A stretch of 64,000 bases of DNA from Tropicibacter sp. Alg240-R139 (lineage in GTDB: Bacteria > Pseudomonadota > Alphaproteobacteria > Rhodobacterales > Rhodobacteraceae), in the NCBI RefSeq assembly GCF_900537075.1, contig NZ_UNRA01000001.1, positions 310,001-374,000 of the forward strand, read 5' to 3'. Below the pieces are notes generated by a model that was given only the letters and a program-made list of their open reading frames with translations, made no database searches and had not been told where the DNA came from. The translations under genes were made by a program, and so were the position numbers. The stretch's first letter is position 1, and each line of letters begins with the position of its first letter. Positions 7,318-58,682 of this stretch are shown piece by piece.

Positions 7318-7448
7318 TTGTGTCGACCTCGTCGTTTCTTGTCAGTTAGACAATCTTGGTTTTATACGACCTCGCGTCATGAAATCCTGACCCGGTAAGG
7401 CGCGAATTCCCCGTCGCACCTTTGGGTTGAACCGGCTAGTGTGCGCCC

Positions 7449-38081: not shown

Positions 38082-39653
38082 TCAACCAGCCGTATCAGGG
38101 TTCTGGGCTTTGACAAGCGCGGCCCGGATGGCCGAGCGAACCTGCGCCCGCGTGGGTTCATCAAGGGATGCCAAATCCACTGTCAGCGTGCTGCCTTCCT
38201 CCCCCTGTCGGAGAGCGGCCTGCGCGACGTCAGAAACCTGAATTTCCTTTACGTGGTATGGGGTGATTTCGCGTGCGATTCCTTTGAAATGAACGGCTTC
38301 GGACGGCTCTGCCTCGATGATGTCACGCACATGTGCGTAAGTCTCGTAACTCATCACGATCCCGCCGGGTTCCGCAATACTTTCAAGCCGCGCCGCCAAA
38401 TTCGCTTCGGCACCGATGATCGTATAGTCCATGCGCTCGTCGGACCCAAAGTTCCCCACGTTGCAATACCCTGTGTTCATCCCCATTCGGGCTTTGAACG
38501 GATGCTCCAGCCCCTTTTGACTCCAAACTTCGGCCAACTCGGCCAACCGCCGCTGCATATCCAAAGCCATGCGCACGCAGGCGCGTGCATCTTCGGCCGT
38601 GCCTTTCGTTTCCGGGTCACCAAAAAAAGCAACTATTGCGTCACCGATGAATTTGTCGATTGTCGCACCGTGGGCTTCGGCGATGCGGGACATTTCCGTA
38701 AAATACTCGTTCAACAGTGCTGTCAACTCTTCGGGCTGCATGCGTTCGGTTGTCGCGGTGAAGTCTTTGATGTCAGAAAAGAAGACGGTCAGCTTCTTCC
38801 GTTCGGTAGAGATCAGAACGTCCTTTTCGCCGGAAAATATCGACCTGTAGACCTGCGGAGACAGGTATTTGGAAATCTTCAACGATATGCCCGCCAAAAA
38901 CTCATTGTTTGCGGTCAGTTCATCATTCATCCGGCTGAAACTGCCCGCGAGCTTGTATTGCAGAATAGCAAAGAAAAAGCCCGCAGTTCCGGCCGCCGCG
39001 AAATAAAGAAGCAGCCACTTGAACGACCACAGATTCAAAGCAACAGGCTGGCGGACGGTAACGGTCTGCAAGGCGCGAATATCGCCAACCTTCCAATCCT
39101 TTTTGGGGCTTTCCGCATGAGAGTTGTGGCAGCTGACACAGCCTCCGGCCATAACCACAGGCGTCGCCAGGGTTATCTCTCGATTCCAAATACTTCCCGT
39201 CGAATTGACAGCGAAATCCTGCCCCTGTGGATCAGTGCGAAATCTGGTCAACGCATCGCGTTCAAATGCATCAAGCTTGTGTGGTGGCCGATTGGCGAAC
39301 GCATAATCAGAGACAAAGCGATACTCAACGTCGCCTTCTGCTGTTCCGATCTTCTCCCCCAGTTCAAGCGACAGCGTCGCCGGGATCGGAATCGCGCCAC
39401 TGACATCAAGATAATTGTGCAGCGCCTGCGTCTCAGCATCCGAGTTCACCACGCGCGACACAACGTTTGTGGCATAATACGTTCGCACCGACGAGATGAT
39501 ACCGTTCAGGCTGCTCGCTTGCCGACGGAGCGTTTCATCGGTGAGGTTGCGCAGGTCCAGCCAAATCGCTGTAGGCAGACCAACGAGGGCAATCAAAACA
39601 ACGATGATCAGCCAATAGGGCCGCGCCAAAAGAAATCGCCCGAAATGGTCCAT
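38082..39653 (-). CDS. Class IIIb adenylyl cyclase with periplasmic haem-binding (DUF3365) sensor
   Basis: The product has 523 residues from MDHFGRFLLARPYW at 39653. Order: TM (about 14-33), a periplasmic DUF3365/Tll0287-like domain (about 40-205) containing one CxxCH (Cys172-His176), TM (about 210-231), a helical linker, and a class III cyclase domain (about 285-460). Asp294 and Asp338 bind metal, Lys334 and Thr411 select the base, and Asn418 with Arg422 act in catalysis. Lys/Thr is the adenylyl cyclase signature of class IIIb, whose characterised members respond to bicarbonate. A single c-type haem as redox or gas sensor is inference. Confidence 0.85.
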   Translation of the reverse strand: MDHFGRFLLARPYWLIIVVLIALVGLPTAIWLDLRNLTDETLRRQASSLNGIISSVRTYYATNVVSRVVNSDAETQALHNYLDVSGAIPIPATLSLELGEKIGTAEGDVEYRFVSDYAFANRPPHKLDAFERDALTRFRTDPQGQDFAVNSTGSIWNREITLATPVVMAGGCVSCHNSHAESPKKDWKVGDIRALQTVTVRQPVALNLWSFKWLLLYFAAAGTAGFFFAILQYKLAGSFSRMNDELTANNEFLAGISLKISKYLSPQVYRSIFSGEKDVLISTERKKLTVFFSDIKDFTATTERMQPEELTALLNEYFTEMSRIAEAHGATIDKFIGDAIVAFFGDPETKGTAEDARACVRMALDMQRRLAELAEVWSQKGLEHPFKARMGMNTGYCNVGNFGSDERMDYTIIGAEANLAARLESIAEPGGIVMSYETYAHVRDIIEAEPSEAVHFKGIAREITPYHVKEIQVSDVAQAALRQGEEGSTLTVDLASLDEPTRAQVRSAIRAALVKAQNPDTAG

Positions 39654-39905
39654 CAAATGCCCCCGCAATACATCCCTGTTGGGGACAGTAATACGGCATC
39701 TTCGTGCGTTCCGCACTCATCAAACAATCAAGGCAACACTGACAGCGTTTCCTATTGCCAGTGCTAGGCGAACCCAGACCATTTCCAAGCGTTGTGAAAG
39801 ACAGAAATCCTCATGGCAACGAAAGGCCAGAACAAACCGCTCCCCGTCGGAGCGTTTCAGTATTCCATTGGGCACGCGCCGCCAAGGCGCGGCCTTTAAA
39901 CGAGA

Positions 39906-41788: not shown

Positions 41789-42376
41789 ATGATCACCAAG
41801 CCCGACCCCGCCGACAGATACCTGAACCTTGCCACCAAACGCTTTTCCGAGCTTGGGTTTCATGGGGTATCGCTGGCATTGGTGGCAAAAGACGCAGGTG
41901 TCACCAAACAGGCCGTTCTGCATTATTTTCGCTCCAAAGAACGGCTCTACGGCGAGGTGCTCAACCGGTTGGCGGGCCGGTTGCTCGCAGAGATCGACGC
42001 GATCAAGGCCCCCACCCCATCGGCCCGCCTGATCGCCTACTTTGAAGCCTACGCCGCCACTGCGATCTCGACCCCCCAAGACGCACGCCTTGTCGTCCGC
42101 GCCCTGCTGGACAGCGACGCACAAGCACGCAGCTGGCCAATCAGACCCTATCTCGACCGCCTCATGGATCTGGCCATGCAAACCCCGCGCTGGCAGAATG
42201 CCAGCCGCGTCGAAGCGCTGGCTGGGCTCTACCAATTGATCGGAGCAATCCAGTATTTTGCGATCTCGGCCCCGACCCTGTCGGGCATGTACGGCAATGC
42301 CATCTTTGACGATTTGGAGAGTGCCCTATCCGCCGATCTCAGACAGATCATTCAGGACTTTGCGCAGGCGCATTAA
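41789..42376 (+). CDS. TetR/AcrR-family repressor of the Rieske gene
   Basis: The product has 195 residues from MITKPDPADRYLNLATKRF; AAAGGAG (41777-41783) is five bases upstream, so 41789 is preferred over ATG 41765. The HTH is FHGVSLALVAKDAGVTKQAVLHYFRSKERL. The C-terminal ligand domain is TetR_C type. It should bind the paired dyads in the divergent spacer and respond to a small molecule, probably the oxygenase substrate. Its 3' end overlaps the convergent ceramidase-like gene by 29 bases. Confidence 0.9.
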   Translation: MITKPDPADRYLNLATKRFSELGFHGVSLALVAKDAGVTKQAVLHYFRSKERLYGEVLNRLAGRLLAEIDAIKAPTPSARLIAYFEAYAATAISTPQDARLVVRALLDSDAQARSWPIRPYLDRLMDLAMQTPRWQNASRVEALAGLYQLIGAIQYFAISAPTLSGMYGNAIFDDLESALSADLRQIIQDFAQAH

Positions 42377-43013
42377 AGCCTAGCACATGCCGCCGCAAAA
42401 CCTCGATCATCCAGCCCAGCATGATCCCATTGAGGATATGCCACATGAAATGCGTCCCCATCGGCCAGGCCCCACAAATCGGCTCGTCCAGCGCACGAAA
42501 CATGATCGACGCAACAAGGATCGTGGCCCCGATGGCCAACCCACGCGCTGTTTCAGGCATACCCCGACGCAGGGCAAGGGCGTAGATGTAGATCAGCAGC
42601 GGCACCGGCGCATAAGCCGCTGACCCACCCAGCCCCGGCACCATCTGGAACAAGGGCACGGTCGCGGCCGCATAGGGAAAGAACAGCACCGTCACCCCAA
42701 CCGCAGGCCACACCCGCAGGCCCCAGACATGGCGGTTCACCGCATAGATGTAGACCAGAATATACAGCAAAATCGGTGCCACATCCGCCATTGCCGCCCA
42801 GACCTGCGCGTGGGTGTGGAACAGATAACTCCCCACCCCAATGACCGCCAAAATGGCAACCAACAGCCGCGCAATCGCGATCCCTTGCGTTCGCCTCCAC
42901 ATGATCAAAGCGGCCACAACAAAGGCCGCATTGGTCACCGCATTCACCGGCTCTGCCCAGTACTCTGGCCCCAGCCGCTCGCAGTACCCATCGATTTTCT
43001 GCAACCAATCCAT
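42348..43013 (-). CDS. Alkaline-ceramidase-like membrane hydrolase (CREST superfamily)
   Basis: The product has 221 residues and about seven TM helices. Ser62, His66 (GSYLFH), Asp77, His188 and His192 (GTHFMWHILNG) occupy the zinc-hydrolase positions of the CREST/ceramidase family, with the family GLGP...WAEPVNAVTNAAFV start. Bacterial members probably cleave N-acyl lipids, such as ceramides or N-acyl amino acids. Substrate is unproven. It is convergent with the TetR gene and divergent from the MBL gene. Confidence 0.85.
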   Translation of the reverse strand: MDWLQKIDGYCERLGPEYWAEPVNAVTNAAFVVAALIMWRRTQGIAIARLLVAILAVIGVGSYLFHTHAQVWAAMADVAPILLYILVYIYAVNRHVWGLRVWPAVGVTVLFFPYAAATVPLFQMVPGLGGSAAYAPVPLLIYIYALALRRGMPETARGLAIGATILVASIMFRALDEPICGAWPMGTHFMWHILNGIMLGWMIEVLRRHVLGFNAPAQSPE

Positions 43014-43083: not shown

Positions 43084-43776
43084 ATGGAAATTATCTGGCT
43101 GGGACACGGCAGCTTTCGCATTGAAACCGCAGGACAGGTTCTGTTGATCGACCCCTGGCTGACCGGCAACCCCGCCCTGCCCGAGGATCAACACAACGCC
43201 GCCATCGCAGGCGCGACCCACATCCTGCTGACCCATGTGCATTTCGACCATGTGGTTGACGTCCTGCCGCTGGCCAAGAAACTGGGCGTGCCGGTTGTGG
43301 GTCAATACGACCTGATGGGCCATTGGGGAGAAACCGAAGGCATTGAAACCGTCGGCTTCAACAAGGGCGGCACCGTGGACCTGAACGGGATCAAGGTGTC
43401 GATGGTCCCCGCCTCGCATTCCTCGACCTTCAACACGCCCGACGGCATTCGCACCGGCGGGACCGAGGTTGGATTCATGATCGCGTCCGAAGGCAAGATG
43501 CTCTACCTCTCGGGCGACACCGACATCATGGCTGACATGGACTGGATGGGGGATTATTACAAACCCGACATCGGTATCCTGTCGGCGGGCGGCCATTTCA
43601 CCATGGACATGAAGGGCGCCGCCTATGCCGCCAAGCGATACTTCAACTTCAAGACTGTGATCCCCTGCCACTATGGCACCTTCCCGATCCTGGAACAGAA
43701 CGCCGACGACTTGCGCGCCGGGCTACCGGGGGTCGACGTGATCGAACCGAAGGTCATGCAGGCCATCACGCTATGA
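43084..43776 (+). CDS. MBL-fold metal-dependent hydrolase (UPF0173/UlaG-like)
   Basis: The product has 230 residues. GHGSFRI, LTHVHFDHVVD (about 50-60), GDTD and PCHYGTFP are the metallo-beta-lactamase motifs of the UPF0173 branch. The family includes lactonases and phosphoesterases but function is mostly unknown. It starts 70 bases from the divergent ceramidase gene and ends four bases before the first of four cyclase genes, so it heads the operon. A link to cyclic-nucleotide or lactone signalling is possible but unproven. Confidence 0.88.
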   Translation: MEIIWLGHGSFRIETAGQVLLIDPWLTGNPALPEDQHNAAIAGATHILLTHVHFDHVVDVLPLAKKLGVPVVGQYDLMGHWGETEGIETVGFNKGGTVDLNGIKVSMVPASHSSTFNTPDGIRTGGTEVGFMIASEGKMLYLSGDTDIMADMDWMGDYYKPDIGILSAGGHFTMDMKGAAYAAKRYFNFKTVIPCHYGTFPILEQNADDLRAGLPGVDVIEPKVMQAITL

Positions 43777-43780: not shown

Positions 43781-44752
43781 ATGAGCGACATCACCCCCTC
43801 GCCCGAATTAGGAGCCATCGTTCGCCGCTGGCTCCGTTCCTATGCGGCAGGTGATAAAGAGGCGGTGCTCAACCTCTTCTCGCAAGACAGCGCCTTGGGC
43901 TACATCGGCTCGTCCCATGACGAAATCTGGCGCGACGAAACCCTGCGCCGTGGCATGGGCGGGTATATGGAGGACATCCCGAGTTTCTCTTGGGACAAGG
44001 ACGATTTCCGAGGGTATGAATGCGGCAAACTGGGCTGGGTCGAATGGTTCGGCGGTCGGGTCTCGCTGGACAGCGGCAAGGAAATCACCTTTCGCTCGAC
44101 CTTTGTGCTGCATCTGGAAAAGGGCGTCTGGCGGATCGTCCATGTCCACAACTCCAACCCGGTCTCGAACATGGACGCCCTGGGGTATCAATCCCGCGGG
44201 TTCGAGGAACTGTTAGAGGCCGCTTTGTCCGCCCCGGTCAACCTGGCACAGACCGGCATGGCGACGATCATGTTCACCGACATCGCCGGCAGTTCGGCGC
44301 TGGCCGAGACCCTTGGTGACGCCCGTTGGTCAGCCGCCGTTCAAGCGCACATGAAGCAGGTCGGCGACATCCTGTCTGACCACGGCGGAACATTGGTTAA
44401 AACCCTGGGCGACGGCACCATGTCCGCCTTCCCCTCTGCCACCGGCGCCCTGACAGCGGCTGCTGAACTCCAGCGGATGATCACAAACAGCACCGCCGAG
44501 CCGCGCCTGCAAATCCGCATCGGGTTGCACACCGGCGATCTGGTGGAACAGGACGGCGACATGTTCGGCACCGTTGTGAACAAGGCCGCCCGCGTCGCCT
44601 CGATCGCGGCGCCTGGCGACATCTGTCTTTCGGACGCCACCCACATCATGGTCGGCGGCGCGACACAATTTGACTTCTCGGAACCGGCACAGGTCCGGCT
44701 CAAGGGGCTAGAGGGCCAGCACACCACTTATCGGCTGGAGTGGCAGGAATGA
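43781..44752 (+). CDS. NTF2-like plus class III adenylyl cyclase, copy 1
   Basis: The product has 323 residues: an N-terminal NTF2/SnoaL-like domain (about 5-130) joined to a class III nucleotidyl cyclase domain (about 160-320). Catalytic set: Asp167 and Asp211 (metal), Lys207 and Asp260 (adenine selection), Asn267 and Arg271 (transition state). No membrane segment. It should make cAMP as a homodimer in the cytosol with the NTF2 domain as ligand or dimer module. It starts four bases after the MBL gene and its stop overlaps the next start as ATGA. Confidence 0.88.
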   Translation: MSDITPSPELGAIVRRWLRSYAAGDKEAVLNLFSQDSALGYIGSSHDEIWRDETLRRGMGGYMEDIPSFSWDKDDFRGYECGKLGWVEWFGGRVSLDSGKEITFRSTFVLHLEKGVWRIVHVHNSNPVSNMDALGYQSRGFEELLEAALSAPVNLAQTGMATIMFTDIAGSSALAETLGDARWSAAVQAHMKQVGDILSDHGGTLVKTLGDGTMSAFPSATGALTAAAELQRMITNSTAEPRLQIRIGLHTGDLVEQDGDMFGTVVNKAARVASIAAPGDICLSDATHIMVGGATQFDFSEPAQVRLKGLEGQHTTYRLEWQE

Positions 44753-45726
44753 GCGACGTTCGCCCCTCTCCTGAAATCCTGGCCATCGCACGGCGCTGGA
44801 TCGAAGCGGTCCCGAACCGGAAACCAAATGACCTGCGCAATCTGATGACCAAAGAAGACCATCTGCTGTTTTTGGGAACAGCAGAAGACGAACTCTGGTC
44901 AGGCACACCTGTCCGCGATGGTGTTGGTGAATTTTTCGGCGCACTCTCGGACTTCACCAAATGTGAAGAGCAGTTCGGCGTAGCCTATGAAAACGGCGGA
45001 ACCGGGTGGGCCTGCTTCACCCATATAGTCGCATTCGCCTCCCTCCCTGACAGATCATTTCTAGTGCGCAATACACTTGTCCTCACACTCGAAGACGGGG
45101 CTTGGAAAATCGTCCACCGCCATGGATCCCTGCCTACCCCGAACGAAGATCACACCGGCGTCGAGCAACCCGCCATCGCCGATCTGGTCACAGCCGCAAA
45201 AGATGGGATCACGTTGAACCAGACCGAAGGCCTCGCCTCGATCATGTTCACCGACATCGTCGGATCATCGGCCCTGGCCTCGGCCCTTGGCGACCGCGCC
45301 TGGTCTCCCATCATCTCGGCCCATTTCAAAACGATCCGGGACATTGTCGAAAAGAATGACGGCCAATTCGTCAAATCTCTGGGCGATGGCACAATGTCGT
45401 CGTTTCCGTCCGCCCGCGCCTGCCTAAGCGCCGCAACACAGATACAATCCGCGCTGCAATCCGACACCAACGAACCGCACCTAACCGTGCGCGTCGGCAT
45501 CCACACCGGCGAAGTGATGCAGGCCCACGACGACTTTTTCGGCACCGTCGTGAACAAGGCCGCCCGCATCACCGCCACGGCGCAGGCGCAACAAATCCGG
45601 GTGTCGGATACAACGCGCCTGATCGCCGGAAACACCGGAGGCTTCACCTTTTTCGGTTCAAAGGATTTTAACCTCAAAGGACTGCAAGGTCGCCACACAA
45701 CTTACCTGCTAGAGTGGCAGGCATGA
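44749..45726 (+). CDS. NTF2-like plus class III adenylyl cyclase, copy 2
   Basis: The product has 325 residues with the same architecture as copy 1. In the N-terminal domain GTAEDELWSGTPVRDGVGEFF and AWKIVHRHGS are recognisable. The cyclase residues Asp169, Lys209, Asp213, Asp262, Asn269 and Arg273 are all present with the same spacings. The ATG overlaps the previous stop by four bases, so translation is coupled. Sequence divergence from the other copies is large, particularly in the NTF2 part, which fits different ligands. Confidence 0.88.
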   Translation: MSDVRPSPEILAIARRWIEAVPNRKPNDLRNLMTKEDHLLFLGTAEDELWSGTPVRDGVGEFFGALSDFTKCEEQFGVAYENGGTGWACFTHIVAFASLPDRSFLVRNTLVLTLEDGAWKIVHRHGSLPTPNEDHTGVEQPAIADLVTAAKDGITLNQTEGLASIMFTDIVGSSALASALGDRAWSPIISAHFKTIRDIVEKNDGQFVKSLGDGTMSSFPSARACLSAATQIQSALQSDTNEPHLTVRVGIHTGEVMQAHDDFFGTVVNKAARITATAQAQQIRVSDTTRLIAGNTGGFTFFGSKDFNLKGLQGRHTTYLLEWQA

Positions 45727-46697
45727 CCGATCCGTTCACCCCGTCGCCGGAACTAAAAGCCGTCGCCCGGCGGTTCTTTCGGGCGGTTCGCGAACGGGAC
45801 GGCAAAGCGATGCGAAACCTCTTGTCGCGCTCGGCCAAGTTGCGGTTTATCGGTACCGCGCCAAACGAACGCTGGAGCGGGCAGTCCCTGCGCGACGGGC
45901 TTGCGGCGCATTTCAACGAAGCCCCCCCCTTTCTGGTGGACGAGGAAACCTACGGCGAAGCCTTTGAAGCAGGTGACACCGGCTGGGCCATCTTTGAACG
46001 CAGCATCGAATTGCAGGGCACCCCGGTGCCGGTCGATTTTCGGTTCACCCTAATTTTCACGATGGAAGACGGCACATGGAAAATCCTGCACCGCCATGCT
46101 TCGATTGGCAAACCAAACGCCGACACGCATGGCGTTGAACACCGCGCGCTGGATGAACTGGCCGCGCTGGCCTCGGCCTCGGACCTGCCGGAAACACACA
46201 CTGATATCGTGACGGTCCTGTTCACCGATATTACCGATTCAACAACCCTTGCCGCAACTCTTGGAGACAGGCTTTGGACAGAGATCGTTCAACGTCATTT
46301 GATCATGATCGAGGACTGCGTAAGCAAACACGGCGGTCAGTTGGTCAAGTCCCTGGGCGACGGCACAATGTCCGTCTTCCCCTCCGCCGCCCAAGCCTTG
46401 CGGGCTGCGCGCTCCGTTCAGCAAACCCTGGCGCAGGTCCAGCAAGAACCCCGCCTGAGCGTCCGCATCGGGGCTCATACCGGGGGTGTGGTGCACTCTG
46501 GCCAGGATTTCTTTGGCACCGTTGTCAACAAAACAGCCAGGCTGACAGCCATCACCGGCCCCGAAGAAATCCGTGTGTCCCACGCCACCCGTACAATGGT
46601 CGGCAACGCCGAGTTCACCTTTGCCAGCCCCCTCACCGTTCCACTCAAGGGACTGGATGGCGAACACCTAATCCACAAGTTTGAATGGCAGACATGA
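45723..46697 (+). CDS. NTF2-like plus class III adenylyl cyclase, copy 3
   Basis: The product has 324 residues. Asp169, Lys209, Asp213, Asp262, Asn269 and Arg273 keep the full active-site set. Deviations from the siblings: TDS for GSS after the first Asp, AHTGG for (I/L)HTGE near 251, and RVSHATR for RVSD(A/T)TR near 284. It may therefore differ in activity or regulation, but key catalytic residues remain. The start overlaps the previous stop as ATGA. Confidence 0.87.
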   Translation: MTDPFTPSPELKAVARRFFRAVRERDGKAMRNLLSRSAKLRFIGTAPNERWSGQSLRDGLAAHFNEAPPFLVDEETYGEAFEAGDTGWAIFERSIELQGTPVPVDFRFTLIFTMEDGTWKILHRHASIGKPNADTHGVEHRALDELAALASASDLPETHTDIVTVLFTDITDSTTLAATLGDRLWTEIVQRHLIMIEDCVSKHGGQLVKSLGDGTMSVFPSAAQALRAARSVQQTLAQVQQEPRLSVRIGAHTGGVVHSGQDFFGTVVNKTARLTAITGPEEIRVSHATRTMVGNAEFTFASPLTVPLKGLDGEHLIHKFEWQT

Positions 46698-47671
46698 TCC
46701 GCCCCTCACAAGAAATCGCCGCCGTCGTCCGGCGCTGGAACGATGCCATGCGTCGCAAGGACGGGGCCACGCTGACCAACATGCTCTCGCGGTCCGAGCA
46801 TCTGCGCTATCAAGGGTCAGCCGAGGGCGAAAGCTGGGCCGGGCAAGTATTCCGGCAAGGTTTTGTCGATCATGTGCGGGAAATCCCCGATTATGACTGG
46901 GAGGAACATGCAACCGAAGCCTTTGAATGCGGCTCGGTGGGCTGGGCGCATTGTCTGGCAACCCTGCGGTTTTCCACCACTGGCAGCGAATCCCTGCATC
47001 GCTTCACATTTGTTTTGCACCTGGAAGAAGGCAGCTGGCGCATGGTGCAGCTGCATGTGTCCAATCCAACGAACAACTTCGAAAAGATGGGCGCAGATCA
47101 CCGCGCCTTGGACGATCTGATCGAGGCCGCACGCGCCGACAATCCCATGCACGGCCAAAGCGGCGTCGCAACGGTGATGTTTACCGACATCGTCGGATCT
47201 TCAATCATTGCGCAAACCGTGGGTGACGTGGTGTGGAGCCGGACAGTGAATGACCACATCACCGCCGTCAGCGCCAACGTCGAGGTCAACGGCGGCCGCA
47301 TGATCAAATCCCTGGGCGACGGCACCATGTGCACCTTCTCCTCGGCCCGCGCCGCAATGGTCTGTGCGCAGGACTTGCAACGTGGATTGCAAAACATACC
47401 TGCCGAACCCCGCATCCAGATCCGCATTGGCCTGCACACCGGCGAAGTCATCGACACCGGCGAAGACTTCTTTGGCACCGTCGTGAACAAAGCCGCGCGT
47501 GTCGCGGGGCTGGCCGGAGCAGAAGAGATCCGGGTATCGGACGCGACCCGATTAATGATCGGAACCGACCCGCAGTTTTCGTTTTCAGACCAGACAGCAG
47601 GCGTTCTGCGGGGATTAGCTGGAAACCATACGACACATCTTTTGGCCTGGCGCGACGCGACCCCGGACTAA
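46694..47671 (+). CDS. NTF2-like plus class III adenylyl cyclase, copy 4
   Basis: The product has 325 residues. Asp165, Lys205, Asp209, Asp258, Asn265 and Arg269 give a complete catalytic set at the same spacing as the other copies. Start 46694 overlaps the previous stop as ATGA; an in-frame ATG at 46685 is possible but would break the pattern. The NTF2-like part shows YQGSAEGESWAGQVFRQGF and FVLHLEEGSWRMVQLH. It is the last cyclase before the M24 gene, 15 bases away. Confidence 0.87.
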   Translation: MIRPSQEIAAVVRRWNDAMRRKDGATLTNMLSRSEHLRYQGSAEGESWAGQVFRQGFVDHVREIPDYDWEEHATEAFECGSVGWAHCLATLRFSTTGSESLHRFTFVLHLEEGSWRMVQLHVSNPTNNFEKMGADHRALDDLIEAARADNPMHGQSGVATVMFTDIVGSSIIAQTVGDVVWSRTVNDHITAVSANVEVNGGRMIKSLGDGTMCTFSSARAAMVCAQDLQRGLQNIPAEPRIQIRIGLHTGEVIDTGEDFFGTVVNKAARVAGLAGAEEIRVSDATRLMIGTDPQFSFSDQTAGVLRGLAGNHTTHLLAWRDATPD

Positions 47672-47686: not shown

Positions 47687-48859
47687 GTGCCAGCAACAGA
47701 TTTCTCGCAAATCGAATATGATCAACGCCTGACCAAGACCCGCACCGCCATGGCGCACCAAGGCATCGACACGCTGATCGTCGCCGACCCCTCGAACATG
47801 GCCTGGCTGACAGGCTATGACGGGTGGAGCTTTTATGTCCCGCAAGTGGTCATCGTGCCCAGCACAGGCACGCCGCTCTGGTGGGGGCGCACGCAGGACA
47901 AGGCAGGCGCGGCACAGACCACCTGGATCGGCGCGGACAACCTGTTCGACTGGCCCGAAGAGCACGTCCAGCACCCAGACCACCACCCCTACGAGGCGCT
48001 TGTGACACTGCTGCAAGAGCGTGACTGGACCACCGGGCTCGGCGTCGAGATGGACAACTATTATTACTCCGCCGCCGCGCACCGTATCTTGGAAACTGCC
48101 TTTGGCCGCGACGCGATTGCGGACGCAACCGGACTGGTAAACTGGCAGCGCGCAGTCAAAAGCAAAGCGGAACTGGCGATGATGCGCAAGGCAGGCCAGC
48201 TGACCGCCCACATGCACGCCACCTTGCGCGACGGCTTTTGCGAAGGGCGCCCCAAAAACGAACTGGTGGCCGAGGTGCAGGCCGCAGGCGTCGCCGGGCT
48301 GCCGGGACTGGCGGGCGACTACCCGGCGATTGCGCCCATCGCGCCATCCGGCCTCGAAGCCTCCGCCTCGCATATCACCTGGAACGACCGGCCTTTGACT
48401 CGCGGAGAGGCCACCTATTTCGAGGTTTCGGGCTGCTATCACCGTTACCACTGCCCCGCCAGTCGGACGCTGTTTCTGGGCGATGTTCCCTCCGACATCC
48501 GCCGCGCCGAAGAGGCGGTATTACAAGCCATCGAAGACACCTTTGCCGCCGCCCGCCCCGGTACCGCTTGCGAGGATGTCGCCGCCTGTGTCTATGACAG
48601 CTTTGCGCGGGCCGGATACGTGAAAGCCAACCGAACCGGATACCCCATCGGCCTCAGCTACCCGCCCGACTGGGGCGAACGCACCATGAGCCTGCGCCCC
48701 GGCGACACGACGCCCTTGCAGGAAAACATGACCTTCCACCTGATGCCCGGCCTCTGGACGCCAGACTGGGGCGTGGCAATCACCGAAAGCTTTGTCGTCA
48801 CCCCGAGCGGCGGCCAACCCCTCGCCGACATCCCCCGCGCCCTGGTGGTGAAAGGATAA
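47687..48859 (+). CDS. M24-fold hydrolase, ectoine-hydrolase (DoeA)-like
   Basis: The product has 390 residues from a GTG at 47687 with AAAGGAA upstream. Creatinase_N (about 10-145) precedes an M24 pita-bread domain. DPSNMAWLTGYDGWSFYV, GVEMDNYYYSAAAH, ATGLVNWQRAVKSKAE and GYPIGLSYPPDWGERTMSLRPGD are close to what I know of ectoine hydrolase DoeA. The usual M24 metal aspartates are replaced (FEVSGCYHRYHCPASRT), as in creatinase-type non-metallo members. It may open ectoine or a related cyclic amidine or amide. No other ectoine genes are in the window. It is last in the cyclase operon. Confidence 0.75.
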   Translation: MPATDFSQIEYDQRLTKTRTAMAHQGIDTLIVADPSNMAWLTGYDGWSFYVPQVVIVPSTGTPLWWGRTQDKAGAAQTTWIGADNLFDWPEEHVQHPDHHPYEALVTLLQERDWTTGLGVEMDNYYYSAAAHRILETAFGRDAIADATGLVNWQRAVKSKAELAMMRKAGQLTAHMHATLRDGFCEGRPKNELVAEVQAAGVAGLPGLAGDYPAIAPIAPSGLEASASHITWNDRPLTRGEATYFEVSGCYHRYHCPASRTLFLGDVPSDIRRAEEAVLQAIEDTFAAARPGTACEDVAACVYDSFARAGYVKANRTGYPIGLSYPPDWGERTMSLRPGDTTPLQENMTFHLMPGLWTPDWGVAITESFVVTPSGGQPLADIPRALVVKG

Positions 48860-48863: not shown

Positions 48864-48945
48864 GGCACTCCCGTCCGTCGGTCGAGCATCAAAGATGCCC
48901 GCCTCCCGTTGGGCCGGGCCTCGCTCCGCTCGGCGGGTGGCGTTC
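48864..48945 (+). repeat. Dispersed GC-rich repeat, copy B1
   Basis: ACTCCCGTCCGTCGGTCGAGC, GCATCAAAGATGCCCG and CTCCCGTTGGGCCGGGCC lie in order, then CTCGCTCCGCTCGG closes a GC hairpin. It is the plus-strand equivalent of B2 at 34465-34547 (minus). The repeat begins five bases after the M24 stop and may serve as a 3' structure for the cyclase operon. Confidence 0.8.
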
Positions 48946-49409
48946 TATTGCACGGTGGAGTTGGGGTTCAAACCGTTAGCCACACAGGTCATTGTGACGA
49001 GGTCGGTTATCCGCTCTTGCCAGTCCAGCACGTCCAGATTGGGCGTTCTTTACAGACCCTCAGGTCGTTCTACTGCTGATGCCGTCTGGTCACTCTCGCG
49101 AGACCGCTTTGCGCAGAAACTCGACTTTGCAAAGTCGAGCAAATGGGCCTACGTTGACCTTCGGTTGCTCCCATCGCAATGTCTGCTTTGTTCTGACCAT
49201 CCAAGACGTACAGGCCGTGATCAGCTCGCAGAATACTCTCGTTGCTTTTGATGGGAATTCGGACGTGAGCAAGGTGAACAAAAGGCCAAGTGCTGATCTG
49301 GATAAAGCCCGAGCAAACGGTCAATTGCCGGACGGATACACGCCAAATCACGGCAGGAATCTACCTGACTGGCTTCCACAACGCATACGGAGCTAACCGA
49401 AACTTACGG
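48946..49409. other. Gene-free region with a perfect 20-base palindrome
   Basis: No credible gene is seen. CTCGACTTTGCAAAGTCGAG at 49120-49139 is a perfect palindrome. An open frame (about 49079-49396) shows some protein-like composition in its second half (ending NHGRNLPDWLPQRIRS) but no family, so I treat it as noise or a decayed gene. The region ends at the stop of the AraC gene. Confidence 0.5.
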
Positions 49410-50399
49410 TCACCTCTGCTTCGCCCGAGCCTGCGAAGGAGCTTTACCCGTCCACCGTCGGTAAGCCCGTGTAAAATTCGATGCTTGAGTAAAGCCGGTG
49501 CGAAAGGCAATTTCTGTCACCGTCATCTCACCTTCGCCAATTGCTGTAGTAGCGTATTGCTGCCGCTGCTCATCCAAAATAGCCTTGAAAGATGTGCCTT
49601 CGCTGGACAGCTTTCGGCTCAACGCCTTGGGATGAAGACGGCAGGCACGGGCGGTTTTGGTGATGTCGAGCTTGGGGTCACTCATATGATCACTACAAAA
49701 ACTGCGAACCGACCCCACTAAGGTTTCAAACTCCTTAGCCGTCTCTCCTAGTGACATGTCACCGGTCTCAAACGCCTGGTTCATAACCATCCATCGGGAG
49801 GGAAACCGCAATGTCAGACCCATCTTTGAGCCGGTGATCAAAGAAGAACGGGGGAGCAACCAATCGGGCACGACGGTTTCGTCTACGACCACTGCAAGCA
49901 CATCCTTTGGATCCCAGGCCTGACCCACACGTGGTCGAATTTGCTCGATAAGAAGGGCTAGGGTAAGCGCATCCGGGTGGGTCGGATTGGCGTCGGGTTC
50001 GACTTTTCGAGTCATTTTCAACGTCGCGTATTGTCCGTCATTCTCCAGCCTGTAGTTGGTAGAATTCCCATAGGATCCGACAGAAATCAGAAAACGGTCC
50101 AGCAGATTACCCACCGTTTGTTCGCCTGCCAAATGCTGCGTCACCGGTCCCATCGCATTTCGTGCCATATCGCGCCCGACTGTGGCCCCCAAAAACGGGT
50201 CACCAAGCCGAGTGGCGATCTCATCAATGGTCTCGTAGATGGCTTTAACGGGAATGAGCCGATCAAAATCCGTTCTGATGGCTTTGGAAATCTGCATATC
50301 GTCCAACAACAGATCCACATCTCCTCCGCGATCTTCGAAGTGAAGTATGAGCGGCATCAGAAGAGCGGCGCGAACCAATGGGGGGGAGCTATCAGGCAT
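49410..50399 (-). CDS. AraC-family regulator with AraC_binding-type N-terminus (PF12625-like)
   Basis: The product has 329 residues. The N-terminal ligand domain (about 20-205) resembles the arabinose-binding-like domain found in OruR/AdpA-type AraC proteins, and the C-terminal HTH pair is ITKTARACRLHPKALSRKLSSEG and VTEIAFRTGFTQASNFTRAYRRWTGKAPSQ. It is divergent from the M19-like operon across 240 bases that contain no convincing gene, so it is the likely activator of that operon. The inducer is unknown. Confidence 0.87.
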   Translation of the reverse strand: MPDSSPPLVRAALLMPLILHFEDRGGDVDLLLDDMQISKAIRTDFDRLIPVKAIYETIDEIATRLGDPFLGATVGRDMARNAMGPVTQHLAGEQTVGNLLDRFLISVGSYGNSTNYRLENDGQYATLKMTRKVEPDANPTHPDALTLALLIEQIRPRVGQAWDPKDVLAVVVDETVVPDWLLPRSSLITGSKMGLTLRFPSRWMVMNQAFETGDMSLGETAKEFETLVGSVRSFCSDHMSDPKLDITKTARACRLHPKALSRKLSSEGTSFKAILDEQRQQYATTAIGEGEMTVTEIAFRTGFTQASNFTRAYRRWTGKAPSQARAKQR

Positions 50400-50639
50400 C
50401 CGACTAATCTAGACCAATCAGCTTGGCGTTGTCATTCATTCAAGGACGGCAATATGATACTACTGTACTCAAGGGATAAGACAGCCACGTTTTTCCAGAC
50501 TAACTTCGAACATAGATATGTTGCCTTCACCGTATTTTCTCCAACCCGCGCAAAGGTTTCGCAGATGGAAGGTTTTATCGCCAGCCGCAGCTACGGATTG
50601 CCCACGTAATCCGGGCGCCGCCATTTAAGAGGACAAATC

Positions 50640-51881
50640 ATGTCAAACAAGAACACGTTTTCCCGCCGTGAACTGATGGCCCTGGCAGCGCAATCCGCGG
50701 CGGCCCTCCCCCTTCTTGGCGCCCCGGCCCTGGCCCGTGAACTGGATGAATATGGCGGGTTCAGTGGCAACAAGAATTTCAAATATATCAGCGCCCCGGC
50801 AACCGTCTATGATTTTGGCCTGACACCGGAACAGGAAGAGCACGCCAAGGAATTGCACGCATCCCTGATCATCTTTGACGGCCTGTCGGAATGCACGTTC
50901 TACCCCGAGTTCATCACCAACATGAAACGCGGGGGCGGCACATCAGGCAACTTCTCGATTGGGATTTCTGACATGCTGCGCTGGACCCCGGACACCGTTT
51001 TCAAGCCACAGGAATGGTGGAGCTGGGAGGCGTTGAACAGAGATCTGGATGCGCTTTATCGCATGATGCACTTATTCCGAGATGACGCGATGATGACCCT
51101 GAACCACGCGGATATTCTGGAGGCAAAGAAAACCGGCAAGGTCGGCTTCATGCCGGGCACGCAGAACACCAAGTTTCTGGACGACGCCGTAAATCGCCTG
51201 GACGAAATGCACCGCAAAGGGCTCCGGATCGTTCAGATCACCTACAATGCGACGAACGCTGTTGGTGCTGGCAGTGCTGAGGCGCCGGAAAATCGGTTTG
51301 GACTCAGCCGCTTGGGACACATGGTGGTGGAGCGGATGAACGAAGTCGGAATGCTCGTCGATACAGGCCACAGCTCTCCCGAAACAATGATACGCGCAGC
51401 AGAAGTATCAACCAAACCCATCGTCATTTCGCATGCCGGGATGTTGTCAAAGGTCAACCAGACACGGGCGACAACGGACGAAGCCATCAGGGCGGTTGCC
51501 GACAAAGGCGGCGTAATGGGCGTGATCAGTACACCTACCGCCATTGCCGGAAGCGATAAATGCACCGTCGAGGACATGCTCGATAACGTCGATCACGCGG
51601 TTAACATCGCCGGTGTCGACGGCGTCGGGTTTGGCTCTGATTTCATTATCCCCGCGACATTCGAACAAATCCTGTCTGCCCCGGAATGGGACGAGGAAGT
51701 CGTCGCAACTATCGGTGAGTTTGAGGTATGGCCCTGGTCGGACGGGCATGTGGGCTGGGAGAACAACTCGGCTTATCCGAACATGACCCGTGGCTTGATC
51801 AAGCGAGGGTATTCGGACGAAGACATCGCCAAGATCATGGGTGGAAACTTCCTGCGGGTGATCAAAGACACCATTGGGTAA
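50640..51881 (+). CDS. Tat-exported M19 (membrane dipeptidase)-like protein with altered metal site
   Basis: The product has 413 residues. A twin-arginine signal (SRRELMALAAQSAAALP, residues 8-24) ends near the ALA at 30-32. The rest is a peptidase_M19 barrel. In renal dipeptidase the DGHND motif gives two zinc ligands; here it is DGLSE (80-84), so the His is Leu and the Asp is Glu. The bridging Glu region reads GTQNT (173-177). The other histidines His244 (DTGHSS) and His265 (ISHAG) are kept. Metal binding is therefore uncertain. It opens the exported-protein operon. Confidence 0.8.
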   Translation: MSNKNTFSRRELMALAAQSAAALPLLGAPALARELDEYGGFSGNKNFKYISAPATVYDFGLTPEQEEHAKELHASLIIFDGLSECTFYPEFITNMKRGGGTSGNFSIGISDMLRWTPDTVFKPQEWWSWEALNRDLDALYRMMHLFRDDAMMTLNHADILEAKKTGKVGFMPGTQNTKFLDDAVNRLDEMHRKGLRIVQITYNATNAVGAGSAEAPENRFGLSRLGHMVVERMNEVGMLVDTGHSSPETMIRAAEVSTKPIVISHAGMLSKVNQTRATTDEAIRAVADKGGVMGVISTPTAIAGSDKCTVEDMLDNVDHAVNIAGVDGVGFGSDFIIPATFEQILSAPEWDEEVVATIGEFEVWPWSDGHVGWENNSAYPNMTRGLIKRGYSDEDIAKIMGGNFLRVIKDTIG

Positions 51882-51934
51882 ACCAGCGAAAAAGGAGGCC
51901 GGAGGCATCATACGTCTCTGGCTGGCTCAACATC

Positions 51935-52420
51935 ATGCATTGGTTGCTCCTGCTCTTGCTCTCAATCTTTGTTCTGCCGGACACGGCAGGCGCAATGGAT
52001 GCGATTGGCAAGGTGCGCCGGGAACGCCCAGAGGTTCTTGATACGTCCGCTACAGTGGCCACGCGGTACGGAACGTTGCAAGCGTCCTATGAGACCGATT
52101 TCCTCGAAGTGCCGCTGAATGGTGTGCATTCCTGGCGATTGTCGTTGCAGGACAAACAGGGCCAACCTGTCACCGGCGCGGACATCGTCCTGACAGCCGA
52201 CATGCCAGAACATTTGCATGGCATGACCACCACGCCCCAGGTTCAAGATACCCAAACACCTGGTTTGTACCTTGTCCGTGGAATGAACTTCCACATGCCG
52301 GGGTATTGGGAGGTCACTCTGGACATCTCAGAAGCAGGCAGCCGTCATCTTTTACGTTTCAACCTGATTGTCGGTGAAAACCAGCGTGGCCCCGACAGGA
52401 AGGGTGCTGATGAAAGCTGA
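51935..52420 (+). CDS. YtkA/FixH-like exported protein
   Basis: The product has 161 residues. The signal peptide LLLLLLSIFVLPDTAGA spans about residues 4-20. The domain GADIVLTADMPEHLHGMTTTPQV and MNFHMPGYWEVTLDI is the YtkA/FixH-like immunoglobulin fold with Met/His motifs (MPEHLHGM, FHMPG), often metal-associated. The ATG at 51935 has no good Shine-Dalgarno; AAAGGAGG at 51891 is 37 bases upstream. It overlaps the next gene by 11 bases. Confidence 0.7.
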   Translation: MHWLLLLLLSIFVLPDTAGAMDAIGKVRRERPEVLDTSATVATRYGTLQASYETDFLEVPLNGVHSWRLSLQDKQGQPVTGADIVLTADMPEHLHGMTTTPQVQDTQTPGLYLVRGMNFHMPGYWEVTLDISEAGSRHLLRFNLIVGENQRGPDRKGADES

Positions 52421-53582
52421 ACCCCTCAGCCTGCTAATAACAATTCTCCCTTTGTTGGCAACTTTGTCTATTTGCGTGGTTCTTTCCAACCCGAGCAAAG
52501 CCGCAGAAAATAATCCCGTTGATTGGACTGAACGAGAGTTCGCCCTGATCCAATCCCTGTCCTTGTCGCAACTGCCGCCTCAGCCACCTTCACCTTCCAA
52601 CCGTTACGCCGACAATCCAAGCGCTGCGTCGCTGGGGCGTGCGATCTTCAATGACGCCCGGTTCAGCGCCAACGGTGAAGTCAGCTGTGCAACCTGCCAC
52701 CGGCAGGACTATGGCTTTACCGATGATCTGCCCCGGGGTCTCGGAATTGGCGTTGCCAACCGTCGCACCATGCCGATTGTCGGAATGGCCTATCAGAAAT
52801 GGTTCTTTTGGGATGGTCGTGCGGACTCTCTCTGGTCGCAAACACTTGGCCCGCTGGAAAACCCGGTGGAGCATGGAATTGACCGGCATCAGGTTCAGCA
52901 GCTTGTCTCGGCGCATTACGCGCAGCCCTATCAACAGGTGTTTGCCGGCGACGCCACAAACCAGCCGGTTGACCAAGTCTTTGCAAACACTGGAAAGGCG
53001 CTGGCGGCACATGTCCGCACAGTGCTGCCGGAAACAACCCTGTTTGATTTGTATGCCGACGCATTGCGCAGCGACAGCAACGAAACCAGCATCCTGACGA
53101 CAGCGGAAACACGTGGTCTAAGGCTGTTTGTCGGCAAAGCCAAATGCGTCAATTGCCACAATGGCCCCATGTTCACCAACGGAGAGTTCCACCATTCGGG
53201 AACCCCGGACAACGGAGAAACGGATCTGGGACGGGGCGCTGCTTTTAGCGATCTTGAGACCACGGAGTTCGGGTTCTTTGGTAAATGGAGCGACGCAGAT
53301 CCGCAGGCAGACGGTGATCATATCCGGTTCTTAGACCGGAATACGCACAAGTACGCTGGCACGTTCAAGACACCTACCTTGCGTGGCGTGTCTGATCGCC
53401 CTCCGTACATGCACAACGGCGCTTTCAACTCTCTGGCACAGGTTCTGAACAACTACCGTGCCGTGTCCGGGTCGACGCTCGCGGACGAGGTATTCCACGG
53501 TGATCTGACGGATCGGGATCTGGTCGATCTTGAGGCGTTCTTGGGAACCTTGTCATCAAACTCCAACGATTTTCACAACTAG
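52410..53582 (+). CDS. Di-haem cytochrome c peroxidase family protein
   Basis: The product has 390 residues from an ATG at 52410. An N-terminal hydrophobic signal (about 5-30) precedes two c-type haem sites, CATCH (93-97) and CVNCH (246-250), and PPYMHNGAFNSL (331-342) with the distal Met334. This is the CcpA/MauG superfamily of the periplasm. The Met ligand favours a peroxidase; MauG-type proteins use Tyr at this place. It probably reduces H2O2 or oxidises a periplasmic partner. The start overlaps the YtkA-like gene. Confidence 0.9.
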   Translation: MKAEPLSLLITILPLLATLSICVVLSNPSKAAENNPVDWTEREFALIQSLSLSQLPPQPPSPSNRYADNPSAASLGRAIFNDARFSANGEVSCATCHRQDYGFTDDLPRGLGIGVANRRTMPIVGMAYQKWFFWDGRADSLWSQTLGPLENPVEHGIDRHQVQQLVSAHYAQPYQQVFAGDATNQPVDQVFANTGKALAAHVRTVLPETTLFDLYADALRSDSNETSILTTAETRGLRLFVGKAKCVNCHNGPMFTNGEFHHSGTPDNGETDLGRGAAFSDLETTEFGFFGKWSDADPQADGDHIRFLDRNTHKYAGTFKTPTLRGVSDRPPYMHNGAFNSLAQVLNNYRAVSGSTLADEVFHGDLTDRDLVDLEAFLGTLSSNSNDFHN

Positions 53583-53597
53583 CTCAGGGGAAATTCA

Positions 53598-53993
53598 ATG
53601 AAAACAAAGGCTCTGGTGACTGCGCTCTCAGTCCTTGCGACCACGGCATATGCCGAAGGAACGACCCGCTATATGCTGGAAGGTATCGCAGACCCATCGA
53701 CCTGGGGTGCAATTCTTGCAAATCCTCAGGATCGTGGCCCCAACGCCGAGGCGCTCATGAACGCCGCAGGATGCGAGCTGATCGACTACTACTTTGGGAT
53801 GTACAACTACAAAAGCTACGTCGTCATTGAATGTCCGAAATCCGTCGATATCGGGCCGATTCAGATTACCATGTTTGGAGCTGGAACAGTCGATACTGGC
53901 ACCGCGACTCCCATTGTGACCACAGCGGAAATGGTTGACGTGGCAAAGGCTGCTCAGAAGATATCCGGCTCCTATGGCGGGCCAAGTGAGTAA
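53598..53993 (+). CDS. Exported GYD-domain protein
   Basis: The product has 131 residues. A signal peptide (MKTKALVTALSVLATTAYA) is followed by a GYD domain: ILANPQDRGPNAEALMNAAGC, YYFGMYNYKSYVVIECP and a C-terminal helix. It aligns with the cytosolic GYD protein at 33478-33810 (shared LA.P.DRGP..ALM) but adds two cysteines and a signal peptide. GYD is a ferredoxin-like dimerising fold of unknown function. It lies between the peroxidase and the amidohydrolase. Confidence 0.78.
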   Translation: MKTKALVTALSVLATTAYAEGTTRYMLEGIADPSTWGAILANPQDRGPNAEALMNAAGCELIDYYFGMYNYKSYVVIECPKSVDIGPIQITMFGAGTVDTGTATPIVTTAEMVDVAKAAQKISGSYGGPSE

Positions 53994-54099
53994 TCAACGC
54001 ACCAGGCAAGCAAGCGGTAAGAAACTGAACATGCTTTTTGCCTGGATATTATGCGAAGGGAAAAAGCTTTTGAGTACAACATCTTGGAGAATTGATGTG

Positions 54100-55455
54100 A
54101 TGATGAAGGCACTAACGGTTATTGCGTTTTCCCTCGCAGCGACGATGGCCTCGGCCCAGGATGAGCCAGAACAGACATTGTTTACGAACGTCAATGTGTT
54201 CGATGGTGTCAATGACGGGTTGCTTGAAAACGCAAACGTGTTGGTTGAGGGAAACCTGATCAAGACAGTCTCGACCGCTGCGATTAACGCAGGCGGGGCG
54301 ACTGTTATCAACGGCGACGGGCGCACCCTGATGCCCGGCCTGATGGATATGCATACGCATCTGTCTATTGTGCGGGAATTATCAACGGCGCGTCACGAGC
54401 TTAGCCCTCTTGCACATGGCGCAATTGCGATGAAGCGGGCTGAAGGCATGCTCATGAATGGGTTTACCACTGTCATGGATGTCGGCGGGCCGGCGATTTA
54501 TCTAAAGGACCTGATCGACGGAGACGCTGGCTTTTTTGGGCCGCGCATCTATTCCGCCGAGGCCTTCATTACGCAAACTAACGGGCATGGGGATTTTCGC
54601 ACGCGGATGGAATACAATCCCAACAATTCCGGGGGTATTAGAAGTTGGTATGAATACTACACGGCTTGCATTGCCGACGGCGTAACCGAAATCCGGCGCT
54701 GTGGCAGAGAGAACTTTCGGAAAGGTGCAACTCATCTAAAGATGATGGTCGGTGGCGGTGTTTCCAGCAGGTTTGATCCGCTGCATGGTTTGCAAGGCTC
54801 ACCCGAGGAAATTGCGGCAGCTGTGGAAGTGGCGCGAAACATGAAGACCTTTGTGACCGTGCACGCATACACCGATGAATCCGTTCGTATGGCTGTTGAG
54901 GCCGGTGTTCCCCATATCCTGCACGCGCCACTGATCACCGAAGAAACTGCCAAGTTGATGGGGGAAAATGGTGTCTATATGCAACCAAATCTGGAAGCGG
55001 TTCTCGGGCTTACCGAAGAGAACGCAGCAGCATTCTTATCGCCAGCATCCTTTGCAAAGTGGAAATCGATCTACGATGAATACCCTGTCGCCATGGAGGC
55101 GGCGATCAAGCATGGGGTGAAGATCGTGTTTGGCACCGACCTTCTGTCTCAATGGAACCAAACTCTCGCGTTCGACAAGACTGCGGCCCTCGAATTGCTG
55201 CAATTGGAGAAATATCTTGGCTCGGCTGGGGCACTTCGGGCGGCAACGTCAACAGCGGCAGAAGTCATCGACCTTATGGGGCCAAATGATCCCTATCAGG
55301 ACGGTGCAAAAGGTGTCGTCGCCGAAGGCGCATATGCTGATCTACTTTTGGTCGACGGCAACGTTTTGGAAGACCTCGCGCTTTTGACCGATCCGGGCAA
55401 GAACCTTGTCGTGATCATGAAAGACGGCATCATCTACAAGAATTCGCTGAACTGA
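54100..55455 (+). CDS. Exported amidohydrolase (imidazolonepropionase/prolidase-like)
   Basis: The product has 451 residues from MMKALTVIAFSLAATMASAQ at 54100 (TTGGAGA upstream). The signal peptide is followed by a TIM barrel with MDMHTHLSI (His85, His87), HLKMMVGGGV (likely carboxylated Lys), HAYTDE, HAPL and GTDLL, the metal site of the amidohydrolase superfamily. Sequence is nearest to the secreted Xaa-Pro dipeptidase/imidazolonepropionase-like group. The substrate is unknown. It is in the periplasm with the peroxidase and GYD protein. Confidence 0.85.
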   Translation: MMKALTVIAFSLAATMASAQDEPEQTLFTNVNVFDGVNDGLLENANVLVEGNLIKTVSTAAINAGGATVINGDGRTLMPGLMDMHTHLSIVRELSTARHELSPLAHGAIAMKRAEGMLMNGFTTVMDVGGPAIYLKDLIDGDAGFFGPRIYSAEAFITQTNGHGDFRTRMEYNPNNSGGIRSWYEYYTACIADGVTEIRRCGRENFRKGATHLKMMVGGGVSSRFDPLHGLQGSPEEIAAAVEVARNMKTFVTVHAYTDESVRMAVEAGVPHILHAPLITEETAKLMGENGVYMQPNLEAVLGLTEENAAAFLSPASFAKWKSIYDEYPVAMEAAIKHGVKIVFGTDLLSQWNQTLAFDKTAALELLQLEKYLGSAGALRAATSTAAEVIDLMGPNDPYQDGAKGVVAEGAYADLLLVDGNVLEDLALLTDPGKNLVVIMKDGIIYKNSLN

Positions 55456-55515
55456 TGCCATAAAAGCGAGTGGCTCACGCCGCCTGTTGGCAAAATTTGA
55501 AGTAAGGGAGTTCTC

Positions 55516-55779
55516 ATGACCGCACTTGATTACATCGCTATCGGCATGATCCTTTTCATGGCGTGCCTCGGGATCGGGGTCTTCGTCTTTCTAGGTGGAT
55601 GGCCCGGTCGGGTGGCTGCAAAGCGCAGACATCCCTATCGATCAGCGGTTTCCGTCGGCGGCTGGGTGACCTTGATTGCCGGGGGTGTCCTGTTCCCCCT
55701 CGTGTTGATTTGGGCCTATGCCGGATCCACGGATGCTGAGGTAGCTGCGACGGATGTCGCGGAAGGCGGTGCCGCATGA
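55516..55779 (+). CDS. DUF3302 small inner-membrane protein (YiaW-like)
   Basis: The product has 87 residues with two hydrophobic helices (about 5-28 and 47-70) separated by GGWPGRVAAKRRHPYRSAV, the DUF3302 signature. In E. coli the DUF3302 gene yiaW pairs with the HlyD-like yiaV. Here the ATGA overlap with the HlyD gene gives the same pairing. It probably supports the adaptor in the inner membrane. The function is unproven. Confidence 0.85.
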   Translation: MTALDYIAIGMILFMACLGIGVFVFLGGWPGRVAAKRRHPYRSAVSVGGWVTLIAGGVLFPLVLIWAYAGSTDAEVAATDVAEGGAA

Positions 55780-57943: not shown

Positions 57944-58208
57944 AATGCAGACCTAGTCGGCAAGCACAGAGACGATCAGAAAGCCGTTCGAAGCGCTGTG
58001 CAGAAACGTCTGAAAGGGGCTGTAAGCGGTCAAAACTTCTGCCCTTCTCCGATGCCGCGAAAGTATCCGATCGCGACGCCATCCAGACATGTCTTAACCA
58101 ATTCCAATACCCTTACTACCAAATTTTAAACACACGTGCCGCACTGCGGCGACATACAGCGGTGCACGCTTGGTGCACGCCCTGTGCACGCATATCACAG
58201 CCCGAAAC
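57944..58208. other. Spacer between convergent oprB-like and tadA genes, with phased GTGCAC repeats
   Basis: The 265-base gap holds no gene. Three direct repeats GGTGCACGC (58161-58169), GGTGCACGC (58172-58180) and TGTGCACGC (58183-58191) repeat every 11 bases, each with a GTGCAC palindrome. They lie 18 bases from the tadA stop. Remaining sequence has no clear terminator. Confidence 0.75.
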
Positions 58209-58682
58209 CTAGCCCTTGTCGCCCCCCGTTGCGCCGCGTCGCAGCGCGAAGAAATCCTTTAACACCTGCTCGCACTCCTGCGCCGCGATGCCGTCATAGA
58301 CTTCCGGATTATGATGCGCCTGGGGGTGGGAAAACACCCGCGCGCCGTGGGCCACGCCGCCCGATTTCGGGTCCGACGCGCCATAGTAAATCCGCGCCAC
58401 ACGCGCCGCCGCCAAAGCCGCCGCGCACATCGCACATGGCTCCAGCGTGACATAGAGGTCATGGCCCACCAGACGTTCTGACCCCACCGCAGCGCAGGCC
58501 GCGCGCAAGGCTACAATCTCGGCATGGGCGGTTGGATCATTCCACTCTCGCGTGCGGTTGCCGGCAGCGGCCACGACCCAACCCTCGGGCGAGACGATGA
58601 CGGCACCAACGGGGACTTCGCCGCGTTCGGCGGCGGCGCGTGCCTGTTCAAGTGCCTGATTCATATGGGATTTGAAGGTCAT
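58209..58682 (-). CDS. tadA: tRNA-specific adenosine-34 deaminase
   Basis: The product has 157 residues. The cytidine/deoxycytidylate-deaminase zinc site is HAE (53-55) and PCAMC (82-86), with GEVPVGAVIV upstream and GVAHGARVFSHP later. The length fits TadA, which deaminates A34 to inosine in tRNA-Arg(ACG). An in-frame ATG at residue 7 could be the start. It is divergent from the pseudouridine synthase gene, 63 bases away. Confidence 0.93.
   Translation of the reverse strand: MTFKSHMNQALEQARAAAERGEVPVGAVIVSPEGWVVAAAGNRTREWNDPTAHAEIVALRAACAAVGSERLVGHDLYVTLEPCAMCAAALAAARVARIYYGASDPKSGGVAHGARVFSHPQAHHNPEVYDGIAAQECEQVLKDFFALRRGATGGDKG

Follow-up and report, generated by a model that had tools for sequence, protein, structure and literature searches.

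A run of four genes whose predicted products combine an NTF2-like domain at the N terminus with a class III adenylyl cyclase domain is present in Tropicibacter sp. Alg240-R139 at positions 43781-47671 of a 64,000-nucleotide stretch of DNA (the window; positions 310,001 to 374,000 of contig NZ_UNRA01000001.1), and comparison of protein sequences across genomes has shown that each of the four comes from an old paralogue group and that these groups appear again in other arrays at the same chromosomal site. All are on the forward strand: gene 1 (43781-44752, 323 residues), gene 2 (44749-45726, 325 residues), gene 3 (45723-46697, 324 residues) and gene 4 (46694-47671, 325 residues). At each of the three junctions an ATGA joins the start codon to the preceding stop (44749-44752, 45723-45726 and 46694-46697, all forward); alternative starts 9 nucleotides upstream are possible for gene 2 (GTG, 44740), gene 3 (GTG, 45714) and gene 4 (ATG, 46685). 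The initial annotation, made from the letters of the window, had described four consecutive genes of 323-325 residues overlapping as ATGA, each coding for an NTF2-like part followed by a class III cyclase domain with the catalytic Asp, Lys, Asp, Asp, Asn and Arg in constant spacing (40 and 53), and all these features were confirmed in the four genes by the results given here and in the two following paragraphs.

The four proteins score above the curated Pfam cut-offs both for SnoaL_3 (PF13474), over approximately 120 N-terminal residues (12-128, 10-130, 12-128 and 8-125 in the products of genes 1 to 4, respectively), and for Guanylate_cyc (PF00211), in the C-terminal part (157-320, 162-322, 158-310 and 157-317). 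The cyclase part is closest to the Mycobacterium adenylyl cyclase Ma1120 (phmmer, 3.9e-25), which it also matches in fold (VIA Z 28.2, root-mean-square deviation 1.7, 164 aligned). The catalytic set (D167, K207, D211, D260, N267 and R271 in gene 1) is complete in the four window proteins, with spacings of 40 and 53 in all of them; we take two of the Asp residues to bind metal, the Lys and the remaining Asp to be of the adenine type, presumably picking the base, and the Asn and Arg to act on the transition state. Among 108 such proteins from 64 loci (see below), five of these sites are conserved in 108/108 and D260 in 107/108 (with one D-to-E replacement), so that the adenine-type Lys is kept in all and the adenine-type Asp in all but one. 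An active site of adenylyl-cyclase type, with cyclic AMP (cAMP) as the predicted product, is supported by these residues. Because the catalytic sets are complete, each member could act as a homodimer, heterodimers being possible and not required; since no family member lacks a catalytic residue (apart from the single D-to-E in 108), obligate heterodimers are not implied, and both these and pseudo-cyclases were rejected as explanations of the array.

The N-terminal domain is predicted, by profiles and structural models alike, to have the cone-shaped alpha+beta fold of NTF2-like proteins. For gene 1 (94 sequences, mean predicted local distance difference test (pLDDT) 87.9, predicted template modelling score (pTM) 0.54) and gene 2 (76 sequences, mean pLDDT 94.2, pTM 0.60), the AlphaFold models each contain two confident domains and a linker of low confidence (residues 150-156 and 153-156, respectively), because of which the mutual orientation of the domains is undefined. 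In both models the helices and strands of the N-terminal domain follow one another in what we take to be the NTF2 order. A profile of 39 N-terminal domains matched, in the PDB, 3h51 (CaMKII-association type, E 1.4e-5) and 3f7s (NTF2-like, E 5.1e-4), isomerases appearing only at E 0.1 or worse, and NTF2-named rows were among the matches of a BFVD fold search. Searching the PDB with a single N-terminal domain sequence gave no match at E 0.1, and fold searches of the PDB with whole models were filled by the cyclase part, their lack of NTF2 rows being uninformative on the N-terminal domain.

The family was surveyed in a scan of named genomes in which either of two short motifs had to be present; 80 of the 87 matches were retained, and distant members were missed. 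Of the 74 loci obtained, 11 under 300 bits were left out (L069, L108 and L110-L118, where Lnnn is a locus label and Lnnn_k the cyclase protein k of that locus); together with the window, the 63 others make up the 64 loci and 108 proteins (>300 bits) analysed here. Copy number ranges from 1 to 5 per locus, and 15 of the 64 loci (window included) carry two to five genes in a row; at 36 of 44 array junctions the overlap is 4 bases, which becomes 13 if an earlier start is taken. The search for the same tandem array in other Rhodobacteraceae, proposed with the initial annotation, was successful: arrays of this type exist outside this genome, at 14 other loci. The four genomes of the genus (own included) all carry 4 or 5 copies; the own genome has four such genes among a total of 20 PF00211 places. 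In the family sample, at least 16 of 394 genomes (own included) have a match at 1e-40, at least six of these 16 with two or more genes side by side, and in the class sample at least 2 of 385 do (the own genome and one of its family); these counts are lower bounds, the first five candidates having been scored in most genomes, and are not additive with those of the named loci, as the sets overlap. Split or truncated copies were found in L057 (9204-10901), in which one array member (L057_3) is shortened to 221 residues, and in L069 (7961-8966), which is a sign that members arise and are lost.

All 15 arrays and 19 of the 49 single copies are located at one site, after a UPF0173 gene and before a tadA-like gene, and the remaining 30 single copies are elsewhere or on a contig too short to tell; the UPF0173 gene is upstream of the cyclase(s) in 34 of the 64 loci. 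The tadA-like gene lies downstream of every array (separated from it in the window by other genes spanning about 10 kb), and beyond it a rluB-like gene is found in 14/15 arrays, the exception being L060, whose locus ends there. The UPF0173 gene is common in the family (114/149 genomes). Among 30 loci around it, four have cyclases (one of them the window's), one (L126) has a lone NTF2 gene and 25 have no cyclase within 1.5 kb; 12 of these 25 have a rluB-like gene further on within the sequence covered, with a tadA-like frame between the two recognised by eye in 11. Because of these cyclase-free loci, the cyclases look like an addition that joined a core UPF0173 locus. The lone gene (L126, 965-1381, reverse strand), which encodes SnoaL_3 (54 bits) with no cyclase at the site, is either a remnant or a separate form.

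When the 108 proteins are placed in one tree, each window gene is assigned to a different group. Counterparts of the groups of genes 1, 2 and 4 are found in Falsiruegeria and Tropicibacter, and those of gene 3 in Falsiruegeria only, followed by Seohaeicola. Recent duplication was rejected, as genes 2 to 4 share 41-44% identity with gene 1 and the groups are common to several genera. Group order in related genera is largely alike and not fixed: the group of gene 1 comes first in all nine arrays possessing it, and the group of L045_3 and L046_3 comes after that of gene 2 in L045 and L046 but is placed ahead of gene 2's in L048 and L050 and ahead of a related one in L070, a shifting position that contradicts a strict order along the arrays. 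Trees of the separate domains conflict in places, the NTF2 part of L050_1 branching with the group of gene 1 (support 91) and its cyclase part with that of L045_3 (support 87), and L072_3 also changing place between the NTF2-only and cyclase-only trees, which points to past exchange of parts. L065_1 and L065_2 (7033-8969) have a cyclase tract of about 200 nucleotides that is 98% identical in genes otherwise about half identical, likely a gene conversion. This is the one clear case, and frequent conversion of the cyclase part was rejected: L050_1 and L050_2, with cyclase proteins 68% identical, have no identical run over 17 nucleotides, and in genes 1 and 4 (the sole window pair profiled) the longest is 21 nucleotides. 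Cyclase identity is just slightly greater for paralogue pairs of one genome (0.529, n=86) than for pairs of different genomes (0.512, n=4566; Mann-Whitney p 0.003, the pairs not being independent).

The two domains differ in how they diverge. Among the window genes, any two share 31-44% of residues over the NTF2 part and 45-51% over the cyclase part, in agreement with the more divergent N-terminal parts seen by the initial annotation. Between groups (3260 pairs from different loci) the values are 37% and 51%, and within groups (411 pairs) 66% and 64%; NTF2 identity exceeds cyclase identity in 229 of the 411 within-group pairs versus 105 of the 3260 between-group pairs (pairs are not independent; the comparison covers groups of at least three members and, within groups, pairs whose mean identity is below 90%). 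In all three ways of cutting the groups, a between-group gap of 11 to 16 points falls to 3 points or less within groups. In 19 chosen ortholog pairs, dN/dS (NG86) is 0.06-0.22 for the NTF2 part and 0.06-0.31 for the cyclase part, with some dS values above 1 and near saturation. Both domains are, by these ratios, under purifying selection, so that the N-terminal domains are held by selection, though strongly different from one another. That the array is more than chance is indicated by reading frames open over their full length, by this selection and by the occurrence of similar arrays elsewhere.

Immediately upstream of gene 1, with a gap of 4 bp, lies the UPF0173 gene (43084-43776, forward), which codes for a metal-dependent hydrolase of the metallo-beta-lactamase fold (230 residues; Pfam Lactamase_B_2/B_3; NCBIfam NF001911, 225 bits versus a cut-off of 144) and is likely in the same operon as the cyclases. 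A single transcript is proposed because of the gene overlaps alone, as the scans for signals gave no support: no sigma-70-like promoter was found at the array (shuffled sequence gives 2.2), and terminator-like sites numbered 12 versus 7.8 (standard deviation 2.7) in shuffles. The direct repeats detected in the array fall inside the coding copies. Fifteen bp after gene 4 begins a gene for an M24/creatinase-fold hydrolase (47687-48859, forward, 390 residues), whose nearest NCBIfam model, ectoine hydrolase DoeA, is matched below cut-off (506 bits, cut-off 613). An M24 gene stands beside the cyclases in 14 of the 34 site loci, and between the UPF0173 gene and the cyclase in five single-copy loci (L061, L064, L066, L074 and L082); none was found within 1.5 kb in the 25 UPF0173 loci without cyclase. 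In some loci the interval between array and tadA-like gene contains other, variable genes, which in the window (48900-58200) include those for an AraC-type regulator, a peptidase M19, YtkA-like, MauG-like peroxidase, amidohydrolase, HlyD-like and OprB-like proteins. The tadA-like deaminase gene follows (58209-58682, reverse; Pfam deaminase; just under the NCBIfam TadA cut-off, with 139 bits versus 150), the RluB-like protein of the window is below the NCBIfam cut-off of that name, though above that of a general model for pseudouridine synthases, and GatA, encoded upstream, exceeds the cut-off of its own NCBIfam model. On the other side, a ceramidase-like membrane protein (PF05875) is encoded by the divergent neighbour (42348-43013, reverse), and a further class III cyclase of 544 residues with a Tll0287-like sensor (PF11845) is encoded at 38082-39716 (reverse), about 4 kb upstream of the array.

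Class III cyclases are dimers with shared active sites, in which sensor domains act via the segment that precedes the cyclase, and dimerisation is common among NTF2 domains, which often bind small molecules. The reading that we favour is that of four soluble adenylyl cyclases, probably made from one transcript together with the UPF0173 hydrolase, in which each NTF2-like domain would dimerise, with its cone occupied by a small molecule or a partner, the bound domain would change the adjacent cyclase dimer through the short linker, and four different inputs would thereby feed one cAMP pool, read by cyclic-nucleotide-binding proteins of the cell (the genome has seven cNMP_binding matches over cut-off, a possible read-out). 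We consider the chances of such parallel inputs to one pool, judged from sequence, to be evenly balanced. The same idea, with mixed dimers as its alternative, had been put forward in the initial annotation, and what can be said for it is that it fits NTF2 parts that are alike within groups and unlike between them, a fit that is not proof. It is a guess that a ligand is produced or removed by the UPF0173 hydrolase. Several observations weigh against this reading. NTF2 domains can be plain dimerisation modules; the rarity of the family (at least 16/394 genomes) argues that it is dispensable; among the 11 groups of the whole-protein tree, NTF2 identity equals or exceeds cyclase identity in five and is below it in six (the group of gene 1 has 79% versus 69%, and other groups show the reverse); within-group identities of NTF2 and cyclase become 69% and 70% with groups defined on the cyclase-only tree, and 57% and 59% with those of the NTF2-only tree; and of the 121 NTF2 and 163 cyclase positions, only 3 and 0, respectively, passed a filter for group-specific positions.

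The array could alternatively consist of NTF2 domains that serve as dimerisation modules only, like the CaMKII hub, with the mix of homo- and heterodimers setting activity and no separate ligands, an explanation that we regard as possible, if unlikely. The best profile match being the CaMKII-association-type 3h51 speaks for it, as do the need of class III cyclases for dimers and the exchange tract in the cyclase parts of the neighbours L065_1 and L065_2, although catalytic residues kept in all but one protein give no sign of a division of labour between partners, and the likeness of NTF2 parts within groups, with unlikeness between them, counts against it. It is also doubtful that the genes are redundant products of amplification, near-equivalent cyclases being born and lost at a permissive site: this would be consistent with the variable copy number, with the split or truncated copies (L057_3 and L069) and the lone NTF2 gene (L126), and with the varying position of one group and the insertion of other genes at the same site, but paralogues this divergent, in groups common to several genera, and copies under purifying selection argue against it. 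More ambitious than parallel inputs, and in our opinion rather improbable, is that the array would be a modular cAMP input board, in which each paralogous NTF2 sensor is fixed by selection for its own small molecule, the operon includes a hydrolase controlling the ligands, and cyclase parts are sometimes exchanged between neighbours, enabling mixed dimers. Anti-phage signalling of the Pycsar kind, in which PycC acts with an adjacent TIR or transmembrane effector and makes cyclic CMP (cCMP) or cyclic UMP (cUMP), is very improbable and was set aside for now. The PADLOC models of PycC, which like the four proteins has a class III cyclase domain, match all four weakly (best 39.3 bits, E 1e-10), and this speaks for it; against it, the matches lie in the generic cyclase part, the three neighbours scanned (hydrolase, M24 and ceramidase-like) have no PADLOC match, the adenine-type Lys and Asp are kept, and the array occupies a fixed site in 4/4 genomes of the genus (own included).

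If parallel inputs to one cAMP pool are confirmed, the sensors of bacterial cAMP production would be extended by a cytoplasmic fold that binds small molecules, and up to five receptors sharing an output would be available as natural sets at a single site, suited to domain swaps. The array would also make it testable why bacteria keep so many cyclases, of which the 20 PF00211 places in this genome are an example. A literature search, restricted to open-licence papers, found nothing on the NTF2-cyclase architecture or on such arrays, and within that literature the statement that four such proteins in a row are undescribed stands. Several class III cyclases are also known in Sinorhizobium meliloti, where the receptor cyclases CyaD1, CyaD2 and CyaK are among 28 class III genes and cAMP feeds the Crp-like regulator Clr (PMC13001267); these three are CHASE2-domain proteins, unlike the NTF2-like ones of the window, and in the available text of that paper the word SnoaL is absent and its passages do not mention such an array. 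An adenylate cyclase, CyaB, has been reported in Ruegeria (PMC13313319). The window proteins resemble the mycobacterial class III cyclases Ma1120, Rv1900c and Rv1264 in their catalytic fold and, in the alignment with Ma1120, in the metal Asp pair and the adenine-type Lys and Asp, but differ from them in having an NTF2-like domain and in being encoded in tandem copies. The cyclase is partnered by an alpha/beta-hydrolase in Rv1900c and by an autoinhibitory helical domain in Rv1264. With the CaMKII association domain, SnoaL_3 proteins and ketosteroid isomerase, the likeness lies in the order of helices and strands, the Pfam SnoaL_3 assignment and the profile matches; unlike these, the window N-terminal domain, known here from sequence and models, is fused to a cyclase. 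The kind of enzyme, a class III cyclase, is thus already known, and what is new is a sensor-domain cyclase of this class in a multi-gene array at a fixed site.

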